From Candidatus Nitrosopumilus sp. (GTDB lineage Archaea > Thermoproteota > Nitrososphaeria > Nitrososphaerales > Nitrosopumilaceae): a stretch of 8,032 nt of DNA. Made by a program: the position numbers and the translations under genes. The DNA lies in contig JAOUAE010000058.1 in the NCBI GenBank assembly GCA_029861085.1, forward strand, positions 1-8,032, in the 5' to 3' direction. Of the stretch, positions 1 to 8,032 are shown one piece after another (positions within the stretch are counted from its first letter, which is position 1; every line of letters begins with the position of its first letter). The notes under the pieces were generated by a model. It saw only the letters and a program-made list of their open reading frames with translations. It did no database searches and was not told where the DNA came from.

Positions 1-263
1 ATGCAATGTGGACGGTAATAACCCAAAAGAAGAAAGGATATTCTATGCATCCTGAAACAATTCGATGGAAGGGAAAACTAAAGGCAATGTATCTCAGACA
101 TGAAGAATTAGTAAAAGAGATGAGTTATAGGGGATACGACCACAAAAGTCCCCTTGACAAAAGAAAGGCAACTGGAAAATCCATTCAGGATATCTTCATA
201 GATACTCCAGCAAAACAAGTTACAATTCTAAAAAACAAAAATTGTGATTGCAAATTAAAATGA
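1..263 (+). CDS. Pyrimidine-dimer DNA glycosylase (endonuclease V type), C-terminal part, 5' end outside the window
   Basis: The reading frame is open from the left edge (first whole codon GCA at 3) to TGA at 261-263, so about 86 C-terminal residues are visible. The stretch KKGYSMHPETIRWKGKLKAM, then RHEELVKEM and RGYDHKSPLD, matches what I remember of the C-terminal half of the Pyr_excise family (T4 endonuclease V-like). There the conserved block 'GEHREL-HA-W' precedes 'GYS-HPET-RWKGKLKALY-RH'. The first bases, xAT GCA ATG TGG, fit 'HAMW', so the ATG at 6 is probably internal and not the start. This family excises UV-induced pyrimidine dimers by glycosylase/AP-lyase chemistry. The catalytic N-terminal amine and the catalytic glutamate lie upstream and cannot be checked. 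The tail ends with a C-D-C pair. Family call fairly confident; activity is inferred. Confidence 0.75.
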   Translation, partial: AMWTVITQKKKGYSMHPETIRWKGKLKAMYLRHEELVKEMSYRGYDHKSPLDKRKATGKSIQDIFIDTPAKQVTILKNKNCDCKLK

Positions 264-267
264 TTCA

Positions 268-272
268 TTTTT
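268..272 (+). terminator. Possible T-run terminator after the glycosylase gene
   Basis: Five T follow closely after the stop codon at 261-263, and a second T6 lies at 312-317. Archaeal RNA polymerase commonly terminates at such runs without a hairpin. The tract is short, so this is weak. Confidence 0.3.
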
Positions 273-320
273 CATTTGGTCTCAAAAGTTAGCATCAGAA
301 GTACATTTTGATTTTTTGGT

Positions 321-328
321 AAATATAA
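321..328 (+). promoter_or_regulatory. TATA box for the 30-residue membrane peptide
   Basis: The sequence aaatataa is centred about 23-24 bases before the ATG at 348. This spacing fits a leaderless archaeal transcript starting at or next to the ATG. Confidence 0.5.
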
Positions 329-347
329 TCAATGAATACTAGATGTT

Positions 348-440
348 ATGGATGGGGCTCAATTCATAGTGCCGATTTTAATTGCTTTGGCAGTTGGAAT
401 TTTTGTAGGGACCAGAATCTGGATCTTGTTTAGAAAATAA
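348..440 (+). CDS. Small single-span membrane protein, 30 residues, unknown function
   Basis: An ATG-to-TAA frame of 30 codons. The product begins MDGAQF, continues with an uninterrupted hydrophobic helix at about residues 6-21 (IVPILIALAVGIFVG) and ends TRIWILFRK, with the positive charges at the C-terminal end. The alternating hydrophobic composition, an acidic residue near the start and a basic tail are typical of a real small membrane peptide. An upstream TATA-like element at the right distance for a leaderless mRNA supports expression. It stands alone between a plus-strand repair gene and a minus-strand sensory gene. I do not recognise a family. The ORF is short enough to have arisen by chance. 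Confidence 0.45.
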   Translation: MDGAQFIVPILIALAVGIFVGTRIWILFRK

Positions 441-595
441 CATTGAAAGGTTATCCATTATTTTCATTAAATCAATTGCTTAATGTCAAATATTTCTATT
501 TCATTGAGATGAAATATCCCTTGAATTCTGTAAATTGGTGCATGAAATCTAATTTATGATTAAACAAAAATCAAAACAATGTAACGATGAGGGAT
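441..595. other. Short intergenic stretch without a supported gene
   Basis: This lies between the small membrane peptide and the 3' end of the minus-strand DICT gene. It is AT-rich. Only ORFs of about 15-16 codons occur, without convincing start signals. On the minus strand, T-rich sequence at 561-580 probably ends the DICT transcript. Confidence 0.4.
561..580 (-). terminator. T-rich terminator of the DICT gene
   Basis: Read on the minus strand, this is a series of T runs (attgttttgatttttgttta) starting 16 bases after the TAA stop at 596-598. That is typical of archaeal hairpin-independent termination. Confidence 0.4.
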
Positions 596-1150
596 TTATT
601 GAATGGCGAACTTAGTCCCAAGCGTTTTGCCCATCACTTTTAGAGCATATCTGCAAACGTTTGGATTAAGGGTGAAAAATCCTCTAAACTTCCCATTCTC
701 AAATTCTTCGGCGATCAAACCGAATGGGCCATAGGGACCTCTTGTAATGACGGTCCAGACATTTGCCAAATCCGTATTTTGGCAACTTAAAAATTCTGAG
801 TTTGATGATAGTTCCTTGCTTGGAATAACGGGCTTGTCAAAATCCGCAATAATCCAAACTTTGGGGATGTTTTTCACCATCTCTTGATATCTTTTTTTGA
901 CAAATGAAAATCTGGCTATCTTTTCAAATGTAGCAAGCAATGGCTGGTGATTTTCTTGCGCATATTTTTCAATCATGACACTAAGATTGTACAACGGTTT
1001 TCTTTCCGCTAAGAAGTTATGATATCCGGCCTCGATAAATTGGTCTAGCTTCCAAATGGGAAGTGTTGAATTATCCAGGTCGTGCCATTCTGCAAGTTGT
1101 GGAAATTCTTCCCATACCTGACCAACAAAATTAGCATAAGGACTTTCCAT
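596..1150 (-). CDS. DICT-type sensory domain protein
   Basis: 184 residues, ATG start at 1150. The region at about residues 52-175 follows the layout I recall for DICT domains (named from diguanylate cyclases and two-component systems). It has an N-terminal helix with L-x-x-L-S-x-x-I-E (residues 53-61), then LLATFEKIARFSF-x-KKRY (71-88). A hydrophobic strand with an acidic residue follows (VWIIADF, 98-104), then a later strand (NVWTVITRGPYG), and finally GFFTLNPNVCRYAL (157-170), which matches the usual 'G-f-T-x-d-p-x-V' ending. DICT domains are thought to sense light or redox signals and are often fused to output domains. Here there is none: only about 50 helical residues precede the domain, so it presumably signals through a partner. 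No membrane segment. It diverges from the DUF6659-like gene at 1249. Coding is near-certain; the family call is from memory of the pattern. Confidence 0.72.
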   Translation of the reverse strand: MESPYANFVGQVWEEFPQLAEWHDLDNSTLPIWKLDQFIEAGYHNFLAERKPLYNLSVMIEKYAQENHQPLLATFEKIARFSFVKKRYQEMVKNIPKVWIIADFDKPVIPSKELSSNSEFLSCQNTDLANVWTVITRGPYGPFGLIAEEFENGKFRGFFTLNPNVCRYALKVMGKTLGTKFAIQ

Positions 1151-1165
1151 GGTATCTAATTTTCA

Positions 1166-1178
1166 ATATAAGATTTAA
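1166..1178 (-). promoter_or_regulatory. TATA region for the DICT gene
   Basis: On the minus strand the sequence ttaaatcttatat lies about 16-28 bases before the ATG at 1150. It is consistent with a leaderless or nearly leaderless transcript. No Shine-Dalgarno sequence is present. Confidence 0.45.
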
Positions 1179-1217
1179 GTTAATCCTTTAGAATTTCTCT
1201 AGTGTTGTTACCTAATT

Positions 1218-1226
1218 GTTTTTATT
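1218..1226 (+). promoter_or_regulatory. TATA box for the first DUF6659-like gene
   Basis: The sequence gtttttatt is centred about 27 bases before the ATG at 1249. There is no Shine-Dalgarno sequence, so a leaderless mRNA is likely. Confidence 0.45.
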
Positions 1227-1248
1227 CTCTGAGACATTAATCTAATCA

Positions 1249-1653
1249 ATGGGACGATATGAAAAACTTCTTGACATGCTAATGGATTTCAATAACTCCA
1301 TTAGATTTGCAGCAATTAGCAATACAACTGGAGACATATTATGGCATAGCAAAAGAAATGATGCTAAAATTTTGGTTCCGTTATCTGAAACCAAAAAAAC
1401 ATTACGACGTGAGGCTTCAGACTGGGTTGATCGATGTAAACTTGAGGAACGAGATAACCTGGGAAGAGCAATGTATCACATAACCTCTTTTGAAAAAATA
1501 AAACGAATCACCATACCCATTGACGCATTCCATCTCTTGTTTGTCAGCGTTGACAATGAGCCGTTAAAAAAGACCAAAAAAAAGAGTTATGGTAGATTGG
1601 TAGAGATGGGAAAAATTATGTCTATTGTGGATTTTGTAAATACTTTTGAATAG
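1249..1653 (+). CDS. DUF6659-like small cytosolic protein, paralogue 1
   Basis: 134 residues with no membrane span or signal peptide. It begins MGRYEKLLDMLMDFN and continues with a beta-strand-turn-strand unit, SIRFAAISNTTGDILWHS (residues 17-34). This resembles the start of thaumarchaeal DUF6659 proteins and, more loosely, roadblock/profilin-like folds. Further blocks are VPLSETKKTL (43-52), an aromatic-rich helix, then YHITSFEKIKRITIP (76-90) and a hydrophobic strand HLLFVSV (95-101). The C-terminal segment SYGRLVEMGKIMSIVDFV (113-130) adds a helix. About half of the aligned positions are identical with the protein at 1839. Function is unknown; a role in small signalling or scaffold assemblies would be inference from the fold resemblance only. 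The ATG is supported by the upstream TATA element. Confidence 0.8.
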   Translation: MGRYEKLLDMLMDFNNSIRFAAISNTTGDILWHSKRNDAKILVPLSETKKTLRREASDWVDRCKLEERDNLGRAMYHITSFEKIKRITIPIDAFHLLFVSVDNEPLKKTKKKSYGRLVEMGKIMSIVDFVNTFE

Positions 1654-1659
1654 AATTCT

Positions 1660-1670
1660 ATTTTTTTCTT
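1660..1670 (+). terminator. T-run terminator after the first DUF6659-like gene
   Basis: Eight consecutive T followed by C-T-T begin about 7 bases after the TAG stop. This makes it the clearest archaeal terminator in the window, and it implies the two paralogues are transcribed separately. Confidence 0.55.
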
Positions 1671-1805
1671 ACCACAAATACCAAAAAACCATCATTGGAA
1701 ATACTTTCTCATTATGGGATTACGAGTTATAAGGAAAAAATCAAATGTTTCACGAGCATCAGTCTTGTATTTTTTGTATAGTTTACCATCAGGTAATTAG
1801 TTTAG

Positions 1806-1816
1806 AATATTTATTA
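1806..1816 (+). promoter_or_regulatory. TATA box for the second DUF6659-like gene
   Basis: The sequence aatatttatta is centred 27-28 bases before the GTG at 1839. It supports this GTG as the start of a leaderless transcript. Confidence 0.5.
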
Positions 1817-1838
1817 ACAGAAATGCGGAATAATCTGT

Positions 1839-2237
1839 GTGGAAAAATACGAGCAACTTCTCAACATGCTAATGGATTTCAACAAGAGCATCAGATTTGG
1901 AGCTGTATGTAATCCTCAAGGAGAACTACTTTGGCATAGTCAACGAGAGGGTGTAAAGAACATTGTCCCATATGAGGATACAAAACAAACTATTTTACGA
2001 GCAATAGATTCATGGAAAGAAAATTTGAAAATTACTGATAATATAGGATCAGGACTTTATTCCATTACATCCTATGAGAAGATTAAGAGGATAACAATTC
2101 CGCTAGGGGATGGAAATACATTATTCATTAGTGTAAACAATGAGATTCCATCCAAGAAAAAAACCAAAAGCTATGGTCATCTTGCAGAAATGGGAAAAAT
2201 TCTCTCCATTGTTGACTTTGTAAAATCTCAAAAGTAG
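1839..2237 (+). CDS. DUF6659-like small cytosolic protein, paralogue 2
   Basis: 132 residues, GTG start (GTG GAA AAA TAC) chosen because the homology with the protein at 1249 begins exactly here and a TATA-like element sits about 27 bases upstream. Conserved blocks with its neighbour include YEQLLNMLMDFN (4-15), SIRFGAVCNPQGELLWHS (17-34), YSITSYEKIKRITIP (74-88), LFISV (95-99), and SYGHLAEMGKILSIVDFV (111-128). It lacks two residues found near position 68 of paralogue 1. The pair arose by tandem duplication, then diverged, each keeping its own promoter. Function unknown. Its 3' end faces the minus-strand gene at 2292-2627, 54 bases away. Confidence 0.8.
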   Translation: MEKYEQLLNMLMDFNKSIRFGAVCNPQGELLWHSQREGVKNIVPYEDTKQTILRAIDSWKENLKITDNIGSGLYSITSYEKIKRITIPLGDGNTLFISVNNEIPSKKKTKSYGHLAEMGKILSIVDFVKSQK

Positions 2238-2240
2238 GTT

Positions 2241-2246
2241 AAAAAA
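2241..2246 (-). terminator. Possible T6 terminator of the minus-strand 111-residue gene
   Basis: On the minus strand six T lie about 45 bases beyond the stop at 2292, in the convergent gap with the second DUF6659-like gene. Weak because of the distance. Confidence 0.25.
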
Positions 2247-2291
2247 TCAATTCACTTGACAAATATGTCATTACTAGTATGGTATTCCTTG

Positions 2292-2627
2292 TTACTCTGA
2301 ACTACTAAAATACACCTCCAAAGTGTCAAACTTGTCTTGATGGCCTGCAACATAATGCAGCACATCCTGAGAATCAATCTCAATCCATTCTGAGACGCCT
2401 TTGAAATAAACGGTATCCTCAATGCATGCATCACCCGGACCTGACAGTCTGATCAACACCTTGTCTTCAGTAGGAATGAGAAATGGAAGTTTGATTAGCT
2501 TGTCTATCCAATGCCCCTGTATGTTTATCGTATGCTCCTTGCCGTTAAGTTCTGCCTTTCCTTTAAAATATGACTCTGCGATATCCAGTCTGTTTATTTT
2601 TATCTCTAGCATGGATTGATATTTCAT
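2292..2627 (-). CDS. Hypothetical soluble beta-rich protein, 111 residues
   Basis: I do not recognise a family. The ATG at 2627 is preferred over the internal ATG at 2612 because a TATA-like element sits about 27 bases upstream of it. The sequence alternates hydrophobic and polar residues as expected for an antiparallel beta structure: MLEIKINRLDIAESYF (6-21), HTINIQGHWI (32-41), KVLIRLSGPGD (56-66), DTVYFKGVSEWIEI (71-84), TLEVYFS (102-108). No membrane helix, signal peptide or nucleotide-binding motif. One cysteine (C68), with three histidines at 32, 39 and 91 and another at 96. It diverges from the antiporter gene across a 183-base spacer, which may hold shared regulation. Plausibly a lineage-specific conserved protein. 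Confidence 0.75.
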   Translation of the reverse strand: MKYQSMLEIKINRLDIAESYFKGKAELNGKEHTINIQGHWIDKLIKLPFLIPTEDKVLIRLSGPGDACIEDTVYFKGVSEWIEIDSQDVLHYVAGHQDKFDTLEVYFSSSE

Positions 2628-2649
2628 GATCTAGTTTGTCGTTTGTCAG

Positions 2650-2659
2650 TAATATAATC
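2650..2659 (-). promoter_or_regulatory. TATA box for the 111-residue hypothetical gene
   Basis: On the minus strand this reads gattatatta, centred about 27 bases before the ATG at 2627. It is one of the better TATA matches here and decides the start codon. Confidence 0.55.
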
Positions 2660-2692
2660 AGGAAAAAATTTTAGCTGGTGCCAACTTTGTTG

Positions 2693-2711
2693 AAAAAAAA
2701 GGTGTTTTTTT
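2693..2711. repeat. A8/T7 inverted repeat in the divergent promoter region
   Basis: Eight A, the spacer GGTG, then seven T form a perfect A:T stem of at least seven pairs between two divergently transcribed genes. It could act as a weak bidirectional terminator, a DNA bend or simply be low-complexity sequence. No function is shown. Confidence 0.4.
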
Positions 2712-2777
2712 GAAAAGGAACCAAAGATAATCCATAAGATGTCTAAAACTAATTTAATGATCTGTTGTTGTGGAATT

Positions 2778-2786
2778 GAATTAATA
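2778..2786 (+). promoter_or_regulatory. TATA box for the antiporter gene
   Basis: The sequence gaattaata is centred about 28 bases before the ATG at 2811. It is consistent with a leaderless transcript. Confidence 0.45.
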
Positions 2787-2810
2787 CGGTATGTTCTAAC
2801 ATCCTAATGA

Positions 2811-4583
2811 ATGGTTTCTGCAGGAGTTACGGAATTTCTAAGCTTATTGGTGATTCTTTTTGGTGGAGGGATGATAAGTGCATGGATCATGCACAAAATA
2901 CATTTTCCTACAATTATTGGTTTTATCCTAATTGGCATAATTGCAGGTCCGTTTGGGCTGGGGCTGGTAAAAGATACAGAACTGATCAACTTGCTTGCAG
3001 AATTTGGCATAATCATACTGCTTTTTGTGATAGGCCTAGAATTTAGTTTAAAGAAGCTGCAGAAAGTTGGATTTACAGGGATTTTAGTCGGTACAATTCA
3101 ACTGGCAATAGTATTTTCATTGGGATACGTGGTGGCCCTGGCATTTGATTGGACCCATCTTGAAGCGCTTTTCTTGGGAAGCATTCTGTCAATTACAAGC
3201 ACTGCCATATCATTGCGTTTTCTCAGAGACCTTAAGCTGGTAAACACAGACGAATGGAACACTGTCGTGATAATTCTCATCATCGAGGATCTTGCGGCAG
3301 TTCTGCTATTGACCATTCTGGGTGATGCAACCAAAGGTGATGGCTTTGCCCTAACTGATTTTGGATTGATCATACTTCAGAGTATCGTATTTTTTGTGAT
3401 AACATTTGGTGTAGGGATAAAGATCATTCCCAAGCTTTTAGAGCATGTCAGCAAAATCAAGATGGAGGAGGCCCTGTTCATCTCCTCCCTTGCGCTGGTG
3501 TTTGGACTGTCCGTCCTCGCTCACTTTTTGAATCTGAGTAGTGCCGTTGGGGCATTTTTGATGGGGATGATCATTGCGTCCACAAAGTTTTCTGAGCCAA
3601 TAATCTCAAAGGTTCTTCCCCTTCGAGATTTTTTCCTGATAATGTTTTTTGTCTCCATAGGAATGCTTGTAAACATTGCACTAATCCCCGAGGTGATTTG
3701 GATCACTATTCCAATTGTAATTGTGGCAATAATTGGAAAGTTCATCGGAAACATGTTTGCAGCATCATTTGCTGGAAATACGCTTGTCAGCGCGTCTACA
3801 ATTGGGATAGTGATGATACCCATCGGAGAGTTTTCATTCATCATTGCAAAACTTGGTGCCGACAGTGGAAGTATCAGGGAATCAATTTTCCCAATAACGA
3901 TATTGGTCGCCATAATTACGATGTTGATGATGCCCCTTCTCTTAAGGGCAATACCGACAAAAGCAGATCCCAAATCAATTGTGCCAACCAGATTGCTGAA
4001 TACCATATTTTATGCGGGTATGCTACTAAGGGGGAAACCCGCCAATGAGAAATCCAATTCGGATCAAATTACGGGTGTTAAAAAATATGCCCCACTAATC
4101 TTGGTCCATATCGTCGTGATAGTCACCATACTGGCTGCAATGAATTATTTTTCGCCATCAATTATCTCATTGATGAATGAATTGGAAATCCCCTTCTTGA
4201 TCGAACCAGAAGTATTTCTCGTGATTCTGACTGTGATGATCTTAATCTATCCGATAGTCTCATTCTTTGGCAGAACAGAAAAAATAATTTCAGATATTTG
4301 CAATACGATTACAATCAACTTTAATTCAAAGGAGAAAAAACAGGTTGACAGGCCATTGTACAAGGTGATTCGAAATTCACTGTTCATGGGTCTGATGTTA
4401 CTATTGGTATCAATCTTCATCAGTTTTGTGGAATTTGAAGACAGTACAATCACAATCATAATTTCAGCTGTGGCGTTGATCATAACATTGCCACTCATTT
4501 TGGACACCATTTTTGCGATAAAGAGGCTGACCCAAACTCATGTGTTTGACAGCTGGATGCCAACCGAAAAGGAAAATGATTGA
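2811..4583 (+). CDS. CPA2-type cation:proton antiporter (KefB/KefC-like), without RCK domain
   Basis: 590 residues. About residues 8-380 form the Na+/H+-exchanger domain with roughly 12-13 helices. Family signatures include HFPTIIGFILIGIIAGPFGL (31-50), the TM3 motif LLFVIGLEFSLKKL (70-83), SITSTAISLRFLRDL (127-141) and IIEDLAAVLLL (157-167). In the last of these, E159-D160 is the ion-binding pair, where Kef proteins usually have QD and electrogenic antiporters DD. AVGAFLMGMIIA (245-256) and IPIGEFSFIIAKLG (336-349) are also typical. After a linker (about 381-425) come four more predicted helices (about 427-446, 463-486, 522-541, 545-569) and a short charged tail. Kef proteins usually carry a Rossmann-type TrkA/RCK regulatory domain there, which is absent. 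It acts in the cell membrane exchanging K+ or Na+ for protons in pH or ion homeostasis; the ion is not predictable. Faces the usp gene. Confidence 0.88.
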   Translation: MVSAGVTEFLSLLVILFGGGMISAWIMHKIHFPTIIGFILIGIIAGPFGLGLVKDTELINLLAEFGIIILLFVIGLEFSLKKLQKVGFTGILVGTIQLAIVFSLGYVVALAFDWTHLEALFLGSILSITSTAISLRFLRDLKLVNTDEWNTVVIILIIEDLAAVLLLTILGDATKGDGFALTDFGLIILQSIVFFVITFGVGIKIIPKLLEHVSKIKMEEALFISSLALVFGLSVLAHFLNLSSAVGAFLMGMIIASTKFSEPIISKVLPLRDFFLIMFFVSIGMLVNIALIPEVIWITIPIVIVAIIGKFIGNMFAASFAGNTLVSASTIGIVMIPIGEFSFIIAKLGADSGSIRESIFPITILVAIITMLMMPLLLRAIPTKADPKSIVPTRLLNTIFYAGMLLRGKPANEKSNSDQITGVKKYAPLILVHIVVIVTILAAMNYFSPSIISLMNELEIPFLIEPEVFLVILTVMILIYPIVSFFGRTEKIISDICNTITINFNSKEKKQVDRPLYKVIRNSLFMGLMLLLVSIFISFVEFEDSTITIIISAVALIITLPLILDTIFAIKRLTQTHVFDSWMPTEKEND

Positions 4584-4648
4584 ATCAAAATACGCTCTAA
4601 AACAACTAGTATCACAAATGCTGATTCCCAGAAACATGAAAAGTAATT

Positions 4649-4662
4649 GAAAAAGAAAAATT
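4649..4662 (-). terminator. T-rich terminator of the usp operon
   Basis: On the minus strand this reads aatttttctttttc, about 25 bases past the stop of the 54-residue gene at 4687. It lies between convergent transcripts. Confidence 0.45.
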
Positions 4663-4686
4663 ATTCTTCATAATTTTATACTGTCT

Positions 4687-4851
4687 TCATAATCCGTCCT
4701 TGATTGTCAAAAGTTTAGCAAACCACAGAGTAGACAATCTCATAAGTATTACAAGTGATGATACACCAAAAAGATCCAATTCCCATCTTCTGATAAAACG
4801 TCTGATCACAACGATTGTTTGTTTATGATTGGAACAACATCCTGATATCAT
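4687..4851 (-). CDS. Small membrane protein translationally coupled to usp, 54 residues
   Basis: The ATG at 4851-4849 overlaps the TGA stop of usp (4850-4848) as ATGA, a standard translational-coupling junction. A GGAG lies four bases before the ATG, within the last usp codons. The product starts MISGCCSNHKQT, has a basic amphipathic part (VVIRRFIRRWELDL, 14-27) and then one hydrophobic helix at about 28-50 (FGVSSLVILMRLSTLWFAKL). It ends in KDGL. The CC-x2-H cluster at residues 5-9 could bind metal, but that is speculation. The stop is followed by a T-rich terminator, so usp and this frame would share one mRNA. I do not recognise the family. A chance ORF is possible, but the overlap, ribosome site and membrane-like composition make a real gene about as likely as not. 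Confidence 0.45.
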   Translation of the reverse strand: MISGCCSNHKQTIVVIRRFIRRWELDLFGVSSLVILMRLSTLWFAKLLTIKDGL

Positions 4852-5285
4852 TTTTCTCCATTGGTGATTAAAACAGAGCACTTTGTATGTCCTACAACCC
4901 CACTTGCGACGCTTCCCAGCACAATCTTTCTAAAGCCTGTCCGGCCATGGGATCCCATGACAACCAAGTCCATACCATGACTATCTGCATATCCTACTAT
5001 TGCTTCTGAAGATGAGGGATTGTGAACTATCTTTATCGAGAATGATATATTCTTGGCCTTTGCTCTGTCTTCGAGCGTTTTAAGCATCGCAGTGGCGGCA
5101 TCCTCCTCCTCATCCTGAATTTCCTGCATGCGTGTCAGAGACATCCCAGAAGAATCCGATATTTTTGACTGAATGACTGTCATGACTGTCAGCTCCGATT
5201 CAAACTTTTCTGCAATTTCCAATGCCTGCTCATATGCTTTTTCAGAGTATCCGGAACCATCAAACGGTACAAGTATTTTTTTCAA
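4848..5285 (-). CDS. Universal stress protein, UspA family
   Basis: 145 residues, the usual length of a single-domain Usp. It begins MKKILVPFDGSGYSEKA, the standard first strand with the nucleotide-contacting D9. It ends with the ATP-binding signature G-2x-G-9x-G-S, as G111-S-H-G114 through G124-S125, followed by a C-terminal strand SVLITN (137-142). A charged loop rich in D/E (57-62, QDEEED) sits between the first strand pair and helix 2. DLVVMGSHGRTG (106-117) is the canonical fourth strand and loop. Such proteins are cytosolic dimers that bind ATP and help under stress. They occur next to or fused with cation antiporters in many genomes, which makes the convergent antiporter neighbour notable, though they are on opposite strands. 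Probably co-transcribed with the overlapping 54-residue frame. Confidence 0.93.
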   Translation of the reverse strand: MKKILVPFDGSGYSEKAYEQALEIAEKFESELTVMTVIQSKISDSSGMSLTRMQEIQDEEEDAATAMLKTLEDRAKAKNISFSIKIVHNPSSSEAIVGYADSHGMDLVVMGSHGRTGFRKIVLGSVASGVVGHTKCSVLITNGEK

Positions 5286-5305
5286 TGTATTTGATTTTGT
5301 TTTTC

Positions 5306-5317
5306 AAAATTTATACC
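5306..5317 (-). promoter_or_regulatory. TATA box for usp
   Basis: On the minus strand the sequence ggtataaatttt is centred about 26-27 bases before the ATG at 5285. It is the strongest TATA match in the window and fits a leaderless mRNA. Confidence 0.6.
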
Positions 5318-5429
5318 ATGTGTCTGATTTTTCTATTTGATAAAATATCTAAAATCCAAAAAATAATCCTTAAACAATAATTTAATTAAAATTAATCAAA
5401 CAGGAAGTAATCCATGTTTCATAGGTGGG

Positions 5430-5435
5430 AAAAAA
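5430..5435 (-). terminator. T6 terminator of the zinc-finger gene
   Basis: Six T on the minus strand begin directly after the TAA stop at 5438-5436 (taattttttccc). Confidence 0.4.
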
Positions 5436-5534
5436 TTAAGATGAAATCTCTGTTGAACACTCATCAGAACATATTCTCCTGTTAAAGACATCTTCATATT
5501 TTCTACCACAATGAACACATTCCCTGAAACTCAT
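5436..5534 (-). CDS. Tiny zinc-finger protein, 32 residues (CxxC...CxxxC)
   Basis: ATG at 5534, TAA at 5438-5436. The product starts MSFRECVHCGRKYEDVFNRR and continues ICSDECSTEISS. Four cysteines, C6-x2-C9 and C22-x3-C26, form a complete treble-clef or zinc-ribbon-like set with the G-R/K turn after the second cysteine expected for a zinc knuckle. A TATA-like element lies exactly 26 bases before the ATG and a T6 run follows the stop, so a compact, leaderless transcription unit is well supported. One-knuckle proteins of 30-60 residues are frequent in Nitrososphaerota. The partner (DNA, RNA or protein) is unknown. It transcribes towards usp. The full Cys set together with both transcription signals makes chance unlikely despite the length. 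Confidence 0.68.
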   Translation of the reverse strand: MSFRECVHCGRKYEDVFNRRICSDECSTEISS

Positions 5535-5555
5535 GATTCAATTACGTGTTCTAAT

Positions 5556-5564
5556 GATATAAAC
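5556..5564 (-). promoter_or_regulatory. TATA box for the zinc-finger gene
   Basis: On the minus strand gtttatatc is centred at 5560, exactly 26 bases before the ATG at 5534. It decides the start and supports the gene. Confidence 0.55.
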
Positions 5565-5613
5565 ACAGCATAGATTAGAAATCAATTACCACTAGAAATT
5601 TGATGATATGTTC

Positions 5614-5623
5614 TTGATATATC
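5614..5623 (+). promoter_or_regulatory. TATA box for the 42-residue membrane protein
   Basis: The sequence ttgatatatc is centred about 25 bases before the ATG at 5643, so this ATG is preferred over the one at 5649. It is divergent from the zinc-finger promoter at 5556-5564. Confidence 0.5.
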
Positions 5624-5642
5624 TGATTCAGAAACATTATTC

Positions 5643-5771
5643 ATGGTCATGAAACTTGATGAGAAAAAAACGGTGTTTGCGGGATTATTGATTACTCTTG
5701 GAATAACAATTCTTGGAGGATTCATTCTGACTGCATTCCTGATGCCCGAATGCAGGAATGTGATATGCTAA
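5643..5771 (+). CDS. Small single-span membrane protein, 42 residues
   Basis: ATG start with TAA at 5769-5771; an alternative start is M3 at 5649. The product has a charged start (MVMKLDEKKT), one hydrophobic helix at about residues 11-33 (FAGLLITLGITILGGFILTA) and a short tail MPECRNVIC with two cysteines five apart (C37, C42). The tail would be outside if the lysines stay in the cytoplasm, which would allow a disulfide or metal contact. A TATA-like element sits at the right distance upstream. It is the first of three short plus-strand genes, followed after 39 bases by the one at 5811. No family recognised. Confidence 0.55.
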   Translation: MVMKLDEKKTVFAGLLITLGITILGGFILTAFLMPECRNVIC

Positions 5772-5790
5772 ATCCAACACAACATTGTCT

Positions 5791-5796
5791 GGAGGA
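5791..5796 (+). promoter_or_regulatory. Shine-Dalgarno-like GGAGGA upstream of the 81-residue gene
   Basis: A perfect anti-16S match, but 11 bases before the TTG at 5808 and 14 before the ATG at 5811, longer than ideal. It suggests the gene is translated from an internal position of a longer mRNA starting at 5643. No TATA element lies near 5785. Confidence 0.4.
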
Positions 5797-5810
5797 AACT
5801 CATAGATTTG

Positions 5811-6056
5811 ATGTGGTTTGAATTTGAATTCTTTAATTGGATTCCTACTTTGGTTAGATTACAATCAGTCAAAGATGAAAATTGGCAAGTAATTCGTAAA
5901 TCTATGCTGAAAACCACTTTGGAATTCAAATATGAAACTTTACAAAAATGGCTTGAGACAAACAAATACTCTGAAAAATCTAAGGTGCAAACTCAAAATT
6001 ATGTACAAGCATTAAGACGAGGTGGTCTAATTAGATATCTTGGGTGTGATGATTAG
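5811..6056 (+). CDS. Hypothetical small protein, possible winged-helix/HTH fold, 81 residues
   Basis: ATG at 5811 chosen; TTG at 5808 would add one residue and lies nearer to the GGAGGA site. The N-terminus is aromatic and acidic (MWFEFEFFNWIP). Then come three helix-like segments: about residues 23-38 (ENWQVIRKSMLKTTLE), 40-50 (KYETLQKWLET) and 54-70 (SEKSKVQTQNYVQALRR). The end, GGLIRYLGC, looks like the start of a wing. The order of a helix, a polar helix with S/T-Q, then 'LRRGGLIRYLG' resembles small winged-helix DNA-binding proteins, but I cannot name a family. No membrane span. Its stop is only 3 bases before the next ATG (6060), so the two are almost certainly one operon. Confidence 0.68.
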   Translation: MWFEFEFFNWIPTLVRLQSVKDENWQVIRKSMLKTTLEFKYETLQKWLETNKYSEKSKVQTQNYVQALRRGGLIRYLGCDD

Positions 6057-6059
6057 AAT

Positions 6060-6311
6060 ATGAAATTAGTGATTCTAATTACCCTGGGAATTGTGCTTGG
6101 ATCAGTCATTGTTATCGTTGCCGTAACAAATTCTACTTTTGATAATTATGTGTCAGAGCGTGATCAACGAAATCTTCAATATTCACTAAACGACTGTAAA
6201 GTATTATTTGTAGATGGATATGAACGGGATGATTGCTTTGAAAAATCAATTAATGCATTTGGAACTGATAAACAAAAACAACAATGGAGATCAGGATTTT
6301 ACAACCCTTAG
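6060..6311 (+). CDS. Small membrane-anchored extracytoplasmic protein, 83 residues
   Basis: Starts 3 bases after the stop of the previous gene, so it is co-transcribed. Residues 3-23 (LVILITLGIVLGSVIVIVAV) form an uncleaved signal anchor with a single lysine before it. The remaining 60 residues are hydrophilic and probably outside the cell. Two cysteines (C46 and C59, in the segments LNDCKVLF and ERDDCFEKS) could form a disulfide, as is common for small secreted thaumarchaeal proteins. Many N and Q residues. No recognised domain. Together with the 42-residue gene at 5643, this makes two single-span proteins flanking a putative regulator. Confidence 0.7.
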   Translation: MKLVILITLGIVLGSVIVIVAVTNSTFDNYVSERDQRNLQYSLNDCKVLFVDGYERDDCFEKSINAFGTDKQKQQWRSGFYNP

Positions 6312-6365
6312 ATTCTAAGATTAAACAATACTCTTAACTTCTTTAGGTATCTAGAAAATGAAAAT

Positions 6366-6375
6366 CTTTATTTTT
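6366..6375 (+). terminator. T-rich terminator after the 83-residue gene
   Basis: The sequence ctttattttt lies about 55 bases after the stop at 6311 and is followed by further pyrimidine-rich sequence. It precedes the next promoter. Confidence 0.35.
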
Positions 6376-6393
6376 CCTGTCTTTACTTTATCA

Positions 6394-6401
6394 TTTTTTA
6401 A
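6394..6401 (+). promoter_or_regulatory. TATA-like element for the secreted protein gene
   Basis: The sequence ttttttaa is centred about 25-26 bases before the ATG at 6423. It supports a leaderless start. Confidence 0.4.
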
Positions 6402-6422
6402 TGGTATCAAGTAAATTCTTTT

Positions 6423-7004
6423 ATGAAAAAATTATTGGTTGCAACATTAATTGGGTTTTCTCTAACTGCATATTTTGGATTGACTGTGTTTATTTTGCCT
6501 GAACAATATATGTCGCATGAAAAACTGGTCTCACAGCCCCACTTTGATGTCAAAATCTCTGACAGAGAGATTTCTTTAGGCGAATCATTCAGACTTGACA
6601 TTGTCACAGAAAACAGGGGGGAGTACGGGGATATCCATATTCTCTCAACGGCATTTCCAGATTTAACTCAGGTTGGCAATGTGGTCAATATTGTAACATA
6701 TGATTTTACACAGCCTCCTACCAACATAGTTCCTGGGGATGAGATGATTGCAAAATATAGTGGGGGGTTAGAGCACACGGTTGCAAAATATCCTTCAATT
6801 GAGGCGATGAGTAGGCCTATTCATCCGGGTTCAACATATCATTTATCACAAATCATTACCCCTGAGAAACAGGGGAACTTTTCAATATTCGTAAAATCAG
6901 TCAACATCCCCCATACAAGTGATCTTTCTCATCATCCACAAACAGGAATTTTAGATCATCAGGAGGAATATGTCCAGGTTTATTCAATTAATGTAAATCC
7001 CTAA
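6423..7004 (+). CDS. Membrane-anchored extracytoplasmic beta-sandwich protein, His-rich C-terminus
   Basis: 193 residues. MKK followed by a hydrophobic stretch to about residue 25 (LLVATLIGFSLTAYFGLTVF) is a signal peptide or N-terminal anchor; no lipobox cysteine is present. The rest alternates like an immunoglobulin-like beta sandwich: HFDVKISDREISLGESF (40-56), RLDIVTENRGEYG (57-69) with the 'N-x-G' turn typical of such domains, then VGNVVNIVTYDF (84-95) and GNFSIFVKSVNIP (151-163). Histidines cluster at 164, 170, 171 and 179, with others at 32, 40, 72, 118, 134 and 140, so metal binding is possible. Length and layout recall archaeal AmoB (about 190 residues), but the copper ligand motif H-x-H that I expect in AmoB is not visible. 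The polytopic protein at 7031 follows 26 bases on. Function unknown. Confidence 0.78.
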   Translation: MKKLLVATLIGFSLTAYFGLTVFILPEQYMSHEKLVSQPHFDVKISDREISLGESFRLDIVTENRGEYGDIHILSTAFPDLTQVGNVVNIVTYDFTQPPTNIVPGDEMIAKYSGGLEHTVAKYPSIEAMSRPIHPGSTYHLSQIITPEKQGNFSIFVKSVNIPHTSDLSHHPQTGILDHQEEYVQVYSINVNP

Positions 7005-7010
7005 TATTTT
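7002..7010 (+). promoter_or_regulatory. Possible TATA element for the polytopic membrane protein
   Basis: The sequence taatatttt overlaps the stop codon of the preceding gene and is centred about 25 bases before the ATG at 7031. The gene may have its own start site in addition to read-through. Confidence 0.3.
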
Positions 7011-7030
7011 GTAAAGAAATACTGAAAGTC

Positions 7031-8032
7031 ATGGATGTTTTAAGATCAAAAATCTCAAATAGTTTTTTGAGTGGACATTCCGAACATGTTTTCCTTGTCG
7101 GATGTATTTTGGTAAGCTTTGGAATTTTATTGGTCACAGTAGGTGGCAGTTGGGATATAACAAATCATTTGCTAAACAAGCCTGATACTTTTTTTTCATC
7201 ACCTCATGCTTTGATGTACTTGGGAGTTACAATCTCTTTGTCGGGCGTAACTGTATCTTTTCTAAGTTGGAGACTATTGCAGAATTTTAGAAATTTGTAT
7301 TTTCTTTCTTTGAAGAATAGTCTAATCGGCATTGCATTGCTATCTGGGGCAGGACCTTTTGATTATATTTGGCACTCTAATTTTGGGTTGGACGGACTTT
7401 TGAGTCCTCCACATCTGACTTTGATTGCAGGTATGTTTTTTTGTGCAATAGGTGGAATGATTGGGATATCTAGATTTTTGAAAATTAACCACGTAAAAAA
7501 TTACCTTAGATACTTGCTAATTTTGGCAATTATGCCCGTATGGTTATCTGGATCAGGAATCATTTCATCACTGTCTTTGCCTTTTTCAAATACGGATTAT
7601 TTTCAATTTAATCCGGACCCCACATTTGCGTTTATTGCTGCAGCATTGGGATTTCCTTTTTTAATTTCAATGTCTTCTTTGCTCATTTTCAGATTATCTG
7701 GTTTTAGATTTGGGATGATGAGTATTCTCGGTGGCCTGTTTTTGTTGATTTATAGCTCCACTGCAATCATACCTAATTTTGCATTGATGGACTCAATTGT
7801 GTTTTATTCTTTGAATTTGATTCCATTTGTCATTGCAGACATAGTTTTATTTTTTAACAAAACTAAAAAGTCATTGATCTTTGTTGGAGGTCTTCTTGGT
7901 TCTATATTTTACATGGTATACTATCCATACGTGATGTATACCTTCAACGAGATCCTGCTTGGAAAATTGGTCTCCCCAAGTTTGATTTATTTTGTTTATT
8001 TTGAGATGATTGATGATGTTCTGTTGTTTACT
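7031..8032 (+). CDS. Polytopic membrane protein with duplicated PmoC/AmoC-like Asp-His-His motif, 3' end outside the window
   Basis: Open from ATG 7031 to the right edge without a stop (334 codons), so the C-terminus is missing. About ten hydrophobic segments, at roughly residues 19-39, 58-80, 93-109, 127-147, 160-180, 198-220, 228-247, 254-275, 282-303 and 315-334. Residues 41-65 and 110-134 are a gapless internal repeat. Both have D-x3-H-x5-D-x6-H-x5-G with S and P before the last H, using D42/H46/D52/H59/G65 and D111/H115/D121/H128/G134. In PmoC of methane monooxygenase the first copper triad is, as I recall, D156/H160/H173 within 'D-x-S-W-H...R-D-T-x-F-T-P-S-H', the same spacing. It is not canonical archaeal AmoC: it is longer, has more helices and has a different sequence. 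I infer a metal-binding membrane protein, distantly or convergently related. It probably works with the secreted protein encoded 26 bases upstream. Confidence 0.7.
   Translation, partial: MDVLRSKISNSFLSGHSEHVFLVGCILVSFGILLVTVGGSWDITNHLLNKPDTFFSSPHALMYLGVTISLSGVTVSFLSWRLLQNFRNLYFLSLKNSLIGIALLSGAGPFDYIWHSNFGLDGLLSPPHLTLIAGMFFCAIGGMIGISRFLKINHVKNYLRYLLILAIMPVWLSGSGIISSLSLPFSNTDYFQFNPDPTFAFIAAALGFPFLISMSSLLIFRLSGFRFGMMSILGGLFLLIYSSTAIIPNFALMDSIVFYSLNLIPFVIADIVLFFNKTKKSLIFVGGLLGSIFYMVYYPYVMYTFNEILLGKLVSPSLIYFVYFEMIDDVLLFT

Follow-up and report, generated by a model that had tools for sequence, protein, structure and literature searches.

The stretch of 8,032 nucleotides that we have analysed (the window) comes from Candidatus Nitrosopumilus sp. 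(contig JAOUAE010000058.1, positions 1 to 8,032, forward strand), and the open reading frame (ORF) at its end, here called F0, raises a question of ancestry and function. Does a membrane protein that carries the motif D-x3-H-x12-H twice belong to the same superfamily as subunit C of the copper membrane monooxygenases (CuMMO-C, i.e., AmoC, PmoC and HmoC), whose copper sites CuC and CuD have ligand triads of this type? A sequence-only reading of the DNA had proposed that F0 is a distant member of this superfamily, or else a convergent di-metal protein. Reciprocal profile searches, a controlled profile-profile alignment and six aligned ligands support the membership. The features of F0 are as follows.

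7031..8032, + strand: F0, membrane protein with homology to the AmoC/PmoC core, of which 334 aa lie within the window, with the C-terminus cut (from the ORF, its homologues and profile searches)
7151..7225, + strand: F0 repeat 1, residues 41-65, from the end of helix 1 into the beginning of helix 2, triad D42/H46/H59, aligned with the CuC positions
7358..7432, + strand: F0 repeat 2, residues 110-134, from the end of helix 3 into the beginning of helix 4, triad D111/H115/H128, aligned with the CuD positions
7487..8032, + strand: F0 C-terminal membrane region, from residue 153, with a conserved LPFS loop and with helices in the AlphaFold2 (AF2) model

We have collected 18 CuMMO-C sequences, namely eleven archaeal AmoC from the loci and seven annotated bacterial AmoC/MMO-C from plasmids (ten plasmid records matched). 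The superfamily profile was derived from the 21 divergent members of alignment A4 (19–53% identity to P0002, an F0 homologue that is 93% identical) and 22 bacterial sequences, with no CuMMO-C included. When the two profiles are aligned by hhalign, the probability is 97.0 and the E-value 9.1e-11 over 112 columns, and the six ligand positions are all aligned. The F0 family (A2) gives E=1.5e-6 (probability 90%) against all 18 CuMMO-C. In the controls, E is at least 0.047 for 39 neighbourhood families and at least 0.12 for six membrane-protein families, the best of 60 composition-class column shuffles reaches 0.018, and the reversed profile 0.14.

Reciprocal HMMER searches covered 3,202 ORFs. At E<=1e-3, the superfamily profile recovers 16 of the 18 AmoC/PmoC/HmoC proteins, the best at 2e-10; with the core profile, all 18 are recovered at E<=0.004. 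In the other direction, the CuMMO-C profile recovers, out of the 115 double-motif family ORFs, 44 at E<=1e-3 (best 6.6e-10) and 94 at E<=10. Reversed decoys reach E-values of 0.0016, 0.054 and 0.0046 at best for the superfamily, core and CuMMO-C profiles, respectively. The Pfam AmoC model matches neither the window protein nor P0002, its gathering score not being reached. On relatives it gives matches below the threshold, i.e., for one of the 21 members (E=0.0035), for P0121 (0.044, the only family matched by this protein), for an ORF at locus L085 (7.3e-4 in its own genome) and at L071 (0.0155), which taken alone would mean little.

The ligands of Methylococcus capsulatus PmoC are Asp156/His160/His173 for CuC and Asn227/His231/His245 for CuD, according to the passages of PMC12576850 on these sites, exactly as the sequence-only reading had given them. 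Our own reading of the ligands could be checked on the Nitrosomonas AmoC in the set, whose residues D136/H140/H153 agree with those given for N. europaea in the relevant passage of PMC7584546. At the sequence level, the alignments show that F0 and AmoC/PmoC/HmoC have a common core of two duplicated helical hairpins, each with a triad aligned to the CuC or CuD ligands.

Is the doubled motif a true repeat? Residues 41-65 (WDITNHLLNKPDTFFSSPHALMYLG) align without gaps with residues 110-134 (FDYIWHSNFGLDGLLSPPHLTLIAG), with D, H, D, S, P, H and G in common (7 of 25), and the two triads stand at the places claimed for them, with spacings of 4 and 13 and 69 residues between the copies. The identity of 7/25 is at chance level, since the best ungapped self-match of 25 residues reaches at least 7 in 300 of 300 shuffles of the whole protein; actually, the real best self-match of F0 is 9, which 155 of the 300 shuffles equal or beat. 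Two copies of D-x3-H-x12-H, on the other hand, occur in none of 20,000 shuffles of F0, in which one or more copies occur 95 times, and the two halves of the F0 family, as represented by 21 divergent relatives, align profile-to-profile with E=3e-13 (probability 98%). The repeat is therefore genuine, the proof coming from the family. This internal duplication suggests that the CuC and CuD sites themselves arose through duplication, and the internal repeat is not detectable using the archaeal AmoC profile alone. As a separate observation, P0001, another homologue with 93% identity, has a tandem duplication of 14 aa spanning the second triad (ALLSGAGPFDYIWH twice).

Free variation of the six Asp/His residues among homologues would, according to the sequence-only reading, have refuted its proposal; these residues do not vary freely. 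For the archaeal set we took ORFs that match the family profile at E<=1e-8 and have at least 150 residues; 112 of 114 loci gave one, and the 110 distinct sequences plus the window protein make 111. D/H/H/D/H/H is kept in 110 of them, and the remaining one has an X. All six are also kept in the window protein and in the best 120 of 1,086 homologues (E<=0.001) from a protein search with F0, which show 71–93% identity. Out of 121 sequences from actinobacteria (P0123 excluded, as it is the same as P0121 across the query), 120 keep all six, and the remaining one is truncated and without its N-terminus. In the alignment of 21 divergent members, no columns are invariant except those of the six ligands and of F54 and Y63 (window numbering).

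The F0 family extends far beyond the window. Few of the best 120 homologues have informative source names; these names read 'hypothetical protein', and at least three are assigned to Nitrosopumilus. A scan of one genome per species yielded 56 loci, each under an archaeal record title (Nitrosopumilus, Nitrosotalea, Nitrosopelagicus, Nitrososphaera and others). Among 250 genomes drawn evenly from the class, 162 have a superfamily match at E<=0.001. The best match is below 1e-100, i.e., of F0 type, in 55, of which 50 also have AmoC above the Pfam cut-off, and in another 55 no match is better than weak (E>=1e-35); 18 of these were inspected. Since assemblies can be incomplete, the following counts should be read with care: 132 of the 161 AmoC-positive genomes have a superfamily match and 29 have none, and 30 genomes have a match without AmoC. 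Because of these 29 genomes, the missing hydroxylamine enzyme of ammonia-oxidising archaea is probably not F0.

Two further groups carry both triads as in F0. The sequence-only reading had mentioned bacterial proteins of the form 'WD-x3-H...TP-x-H'; such proteins do exist and fall in the F0 superfamily, for example in Mycolicibacterium, Nocardia, Promicromonospora and Skermania, and in Rubrobacter by tblastn only. These actinobacterial hypothetical proteins (Mycolicibacterium P0121 and P0122, Nocardia and others) match the F0 family by profile with E=3.9e-12. They differ from F0 in being ~480 aa long, with a fused C-terminal domain that begins HDPGQG in place of a separate F1 (the partner described below), and in that both Mycolicibacterium plasmid members, P0121 and P0122, have an adjoining TetR gene. 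The second group consists of short paralogues of ~197 aa, found in Nitrosopelagicus and other genomes of the class, which end after the core with a conserved terminus SGC[SA][IV][LM]; no F1 was seen among their nearest neighbours at the three loci inspected (L143-L145). Such stand-alone cores occur at L042, L044-L047 and L055 as well as L087-L098, and cytochrome oxidase genes lie ~4-5 kb from the short paralogue in L144 and L145 (COX1 confirmed by Pfam in L144 only).

The F0 ORF runs past the end of the window, and the homologues listed are 358-376 aa long. The C-terminal membrane region is missing from AmoC and from the short paralogues. For P0002, the AF2 model has a pLDDT of 88 and a pTM of 0.88, and in this predicted model the six Asp/His residues all lie at helix ends on a single membrane face. 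It had also been expected that F0 would escape simple annotation searches, and this holds, as the window protein has no match in Pfam or NCBIfam.

Directly upstream of F0 lies a second gene.

6423..7004, + strand: F1, 193 aa, N-terminal membrane helix and Ig-like beta-sandwich, ending 26 bp before F0

F1 is upstream of F0 in 48 of the 56 loci, and its AF2 model has a pLDDT of 92 and a pTM of 0.80. It resembles AmoB/PmoB in combining a beta domain with one membrane helix and in being encoded beside a C-like protein; its orientation is probably outward.

Compared with CuMMO-C proper (Pfam PF04896), F0 has the same two-hairpin core with the triads D-x3-H-x12-H and x-x3-H-x12/13-H, an acidic residue six positions after the first His in each triad, and, in triad 1, an aromatic residue four positions ahead of the second His. 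The distance between the triads is also alike (69 residues versus 71-73), and the CuC-type ligand set Asp-x3-His-x12-His is present in F0 as D42/H46/H59. In contrast to CuMMO-C, F0 has a long C-terminal membrane region, lacks the bacterial-type N-terminal extension, scores below the Pfam AmoC threshold and has no A or B partner nearby. Judged by these relationships, F0 is in the same superfamily as CuMMO-C, outside the CuMMO-C family proper.

What could such a protein do? In the passages of PMC12576850 on particulate methane monooxygenase (pMMO), CuC (Asp/His/His) and CuD (Asn/His/His) lie ~6 Å apart and are never jointly filled in the structures discussed there, and recent work cited there favours CuD of subunit C as the active site. 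F0 retains these ligands as a symmetric pair of triads, Asp replacing the Asn. We favour F0 being a two-site membrane copper redox protein. That is, we consider it rather probable that F0 is an integral membrane metalloprotein of the AmoC/PmoC/HmoC superfamily with two metal sites, probably copper, that is capped by F1 and performs redox chemistry without an A subunit. The triads would hold two metal ions, in all likelihood copper, near each other on the outer side of the membrane; F1 would cap this side in the manner of PmoB on PmoC; and F0 and F1 together might carry out a copper-dependent oxygenation or oxidation of a small molecule.

Several observations weigh against this reading. The F0-only profile A2 aligns weakly with the seven bacterial CuMMO-C alone (E=0.0034, probability 9.5%). 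A moderate alignment with CuMMO-C is obtained for the profile of the actinobacterial proteins by itself (E=8.6e-5, probability 60%). The superfamily profile misses two Methylocystis AmoC in HMMER (E=1.5 and 1.6), and 71 of the 115 family ORFs remain above 1e-3 with the CuMMO-C profile. By structure, Foldseek with the F0-type model gives no PDB entry at E<=0.001, and the best 50 Foldseek or VIA matches listed do not include PmoC. The CuD Asn of CuMMO-C is Asp in F0 (Asp111), with both His kept, and this Asp is found in 111/111 archaeal sequences, 121/121 protein-search rows (best 120 homologues and the window protein) and 121/121 bacterial sequences. The ligand conservation in the 56 loci is partly selected, since the scan patterns contain four of the six ligand residues; the profile-search loci, the protein-search homologues and the bacterial set were chosen otherwise. 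AmoA and AmoB profiles have no match at E<=1e-3 in 1,530 ORFs of 94 neighbourhoods or in the window, which is weak evidence because archaeal amo genes can be scattered. As for F1, its fold is a common Ig-like sandwich, PmoB is not among the matches listed in the fold search, and in hhalign its similarity to AmoB is not significant (E=0.011, probability 4%). Finally, the conserved Asp/His of F0 could also serve metal transport or delivery.

This last point leads to the main rival, according to which F0 belongs to the same superfamily and stores or senses copper (or zinc), or passes it through or along the membrane, for example to ammonia monooxygenase (AMO), with no catalysis. We see a real, if minor, chance for it. 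PMC12576850 describes zinc at CuC in the first crystal structures of pMMO, and copper that can occupy CuC or CuD, ~6 Å away. Genes of BlaI/MecI/CopY-family regulators lie within ~3.5 kb of both Mycolicibacterium plasmid members, one of which is also near a gene annotated as a YHS-domain protein (Pfam YHS just below the cut-off); a cation efflux gene is directly downstream of F1-F0 in one genome (G136, locus L149); and the F0 neighbourhoods are without an A subunit, all of which would suit metal handling. Against it, no recurrent copper gene was seen among the archaeal neighbour clusters, which were partly annotated, and two triads on one face with no conserved ligands towards the other would be an atypical transport path.

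That the Asp/His are structural or proton-relay residues binding no metal is very improbable, for their spacing and identity equal those of the copper ligands at the aligned PmoC/AmoC positions, and they make up six of the eight invariant residues in the 21-member alignment. We give similarly little credit to a convergent di-metal or heme protein unrelated to PmoC, such as a bundle like cytochrome b561. Cytochrome b561 has His pairs facing both membrane sides, for two hemes; in the predicted model of F0, unlike this arrangement, the conserved residues are at helix ends on one face.

Besides the favoured two-site copper redox protein, a bolder and doubtful idea concerns the origin of the enzymes. 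AmoC/PmoC may have come from an older stand-alone membrane di-metal protein, made by duplicating one helical hairpin, so that CuC and CuD would be duplicate sites. F0-F1 would then be a living member of this line, giving ammonia-oxidising archaea a copper oxygenase or oxidase in addition to AMO, with a dinuclear centre in which both sites are loaded at once.

Some other genes deserve mention. In the window, positions 1249-1653 and 1839-2237 encode tandem related proteins of 134 and 132 aa with no convincing Pfam match, and small proteins somewhat resembling this pair by eye adjoin superfamily genes in L132, L133, L135 and L148. Among AMO-related genes, L067:1363-1932 (minus strand) encodes a divergent archaeal AmoC with both CuC histidines changed to Asn (D44/N48/N61) and an intact CuD triad N116/H120/H133. 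Three scattered AmoB paralogues of 217-228 aa with a C-terminal hydrophobic stretch (L113, L115 and L116, in G001, C1 near 1503177, 1310429 and 1423782) are in the Nitrosopumilus metagenome-assembled genome of L001, amid genes whose products look secreted by eye. A protein of 127 aa (L126, in G001, C1 near 1306903, and L289:3697-4077) has a nearly complete archaeal AmoA signature, PEPTLPPHMTPIEPQVGKF, matches the AmoA profile with E=2.3e-11, and lies ~3 kb from an AmoB paralogue.

In methane and ammonia monooxygenases, the active site is a matter of long debate. In the open-licence literature we found no report of PmoC relatives outside CuMMOs, and such reports could exist elsewhere. Since F0 is a distant C-subunit relative with a doubled ligand set, and its family is also present in bacteria, the putative copper-site module of CuMMO subunit C also occurs beyond the known enzymes. 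The F0 relatives, which have Asp for the CuD Asn and lack a nearby A subunit, offer a natural comparison for the role of the C module by itself, for the metal that it holds and for whether its sites can be filled jointly, and the clear internal repeat of the family provides a possible origin for the CuC/CuD pair. Overall, the F0 family adds unassigned candidate metalloproteins to ammonia-oxidising archaea and actinobacteria.
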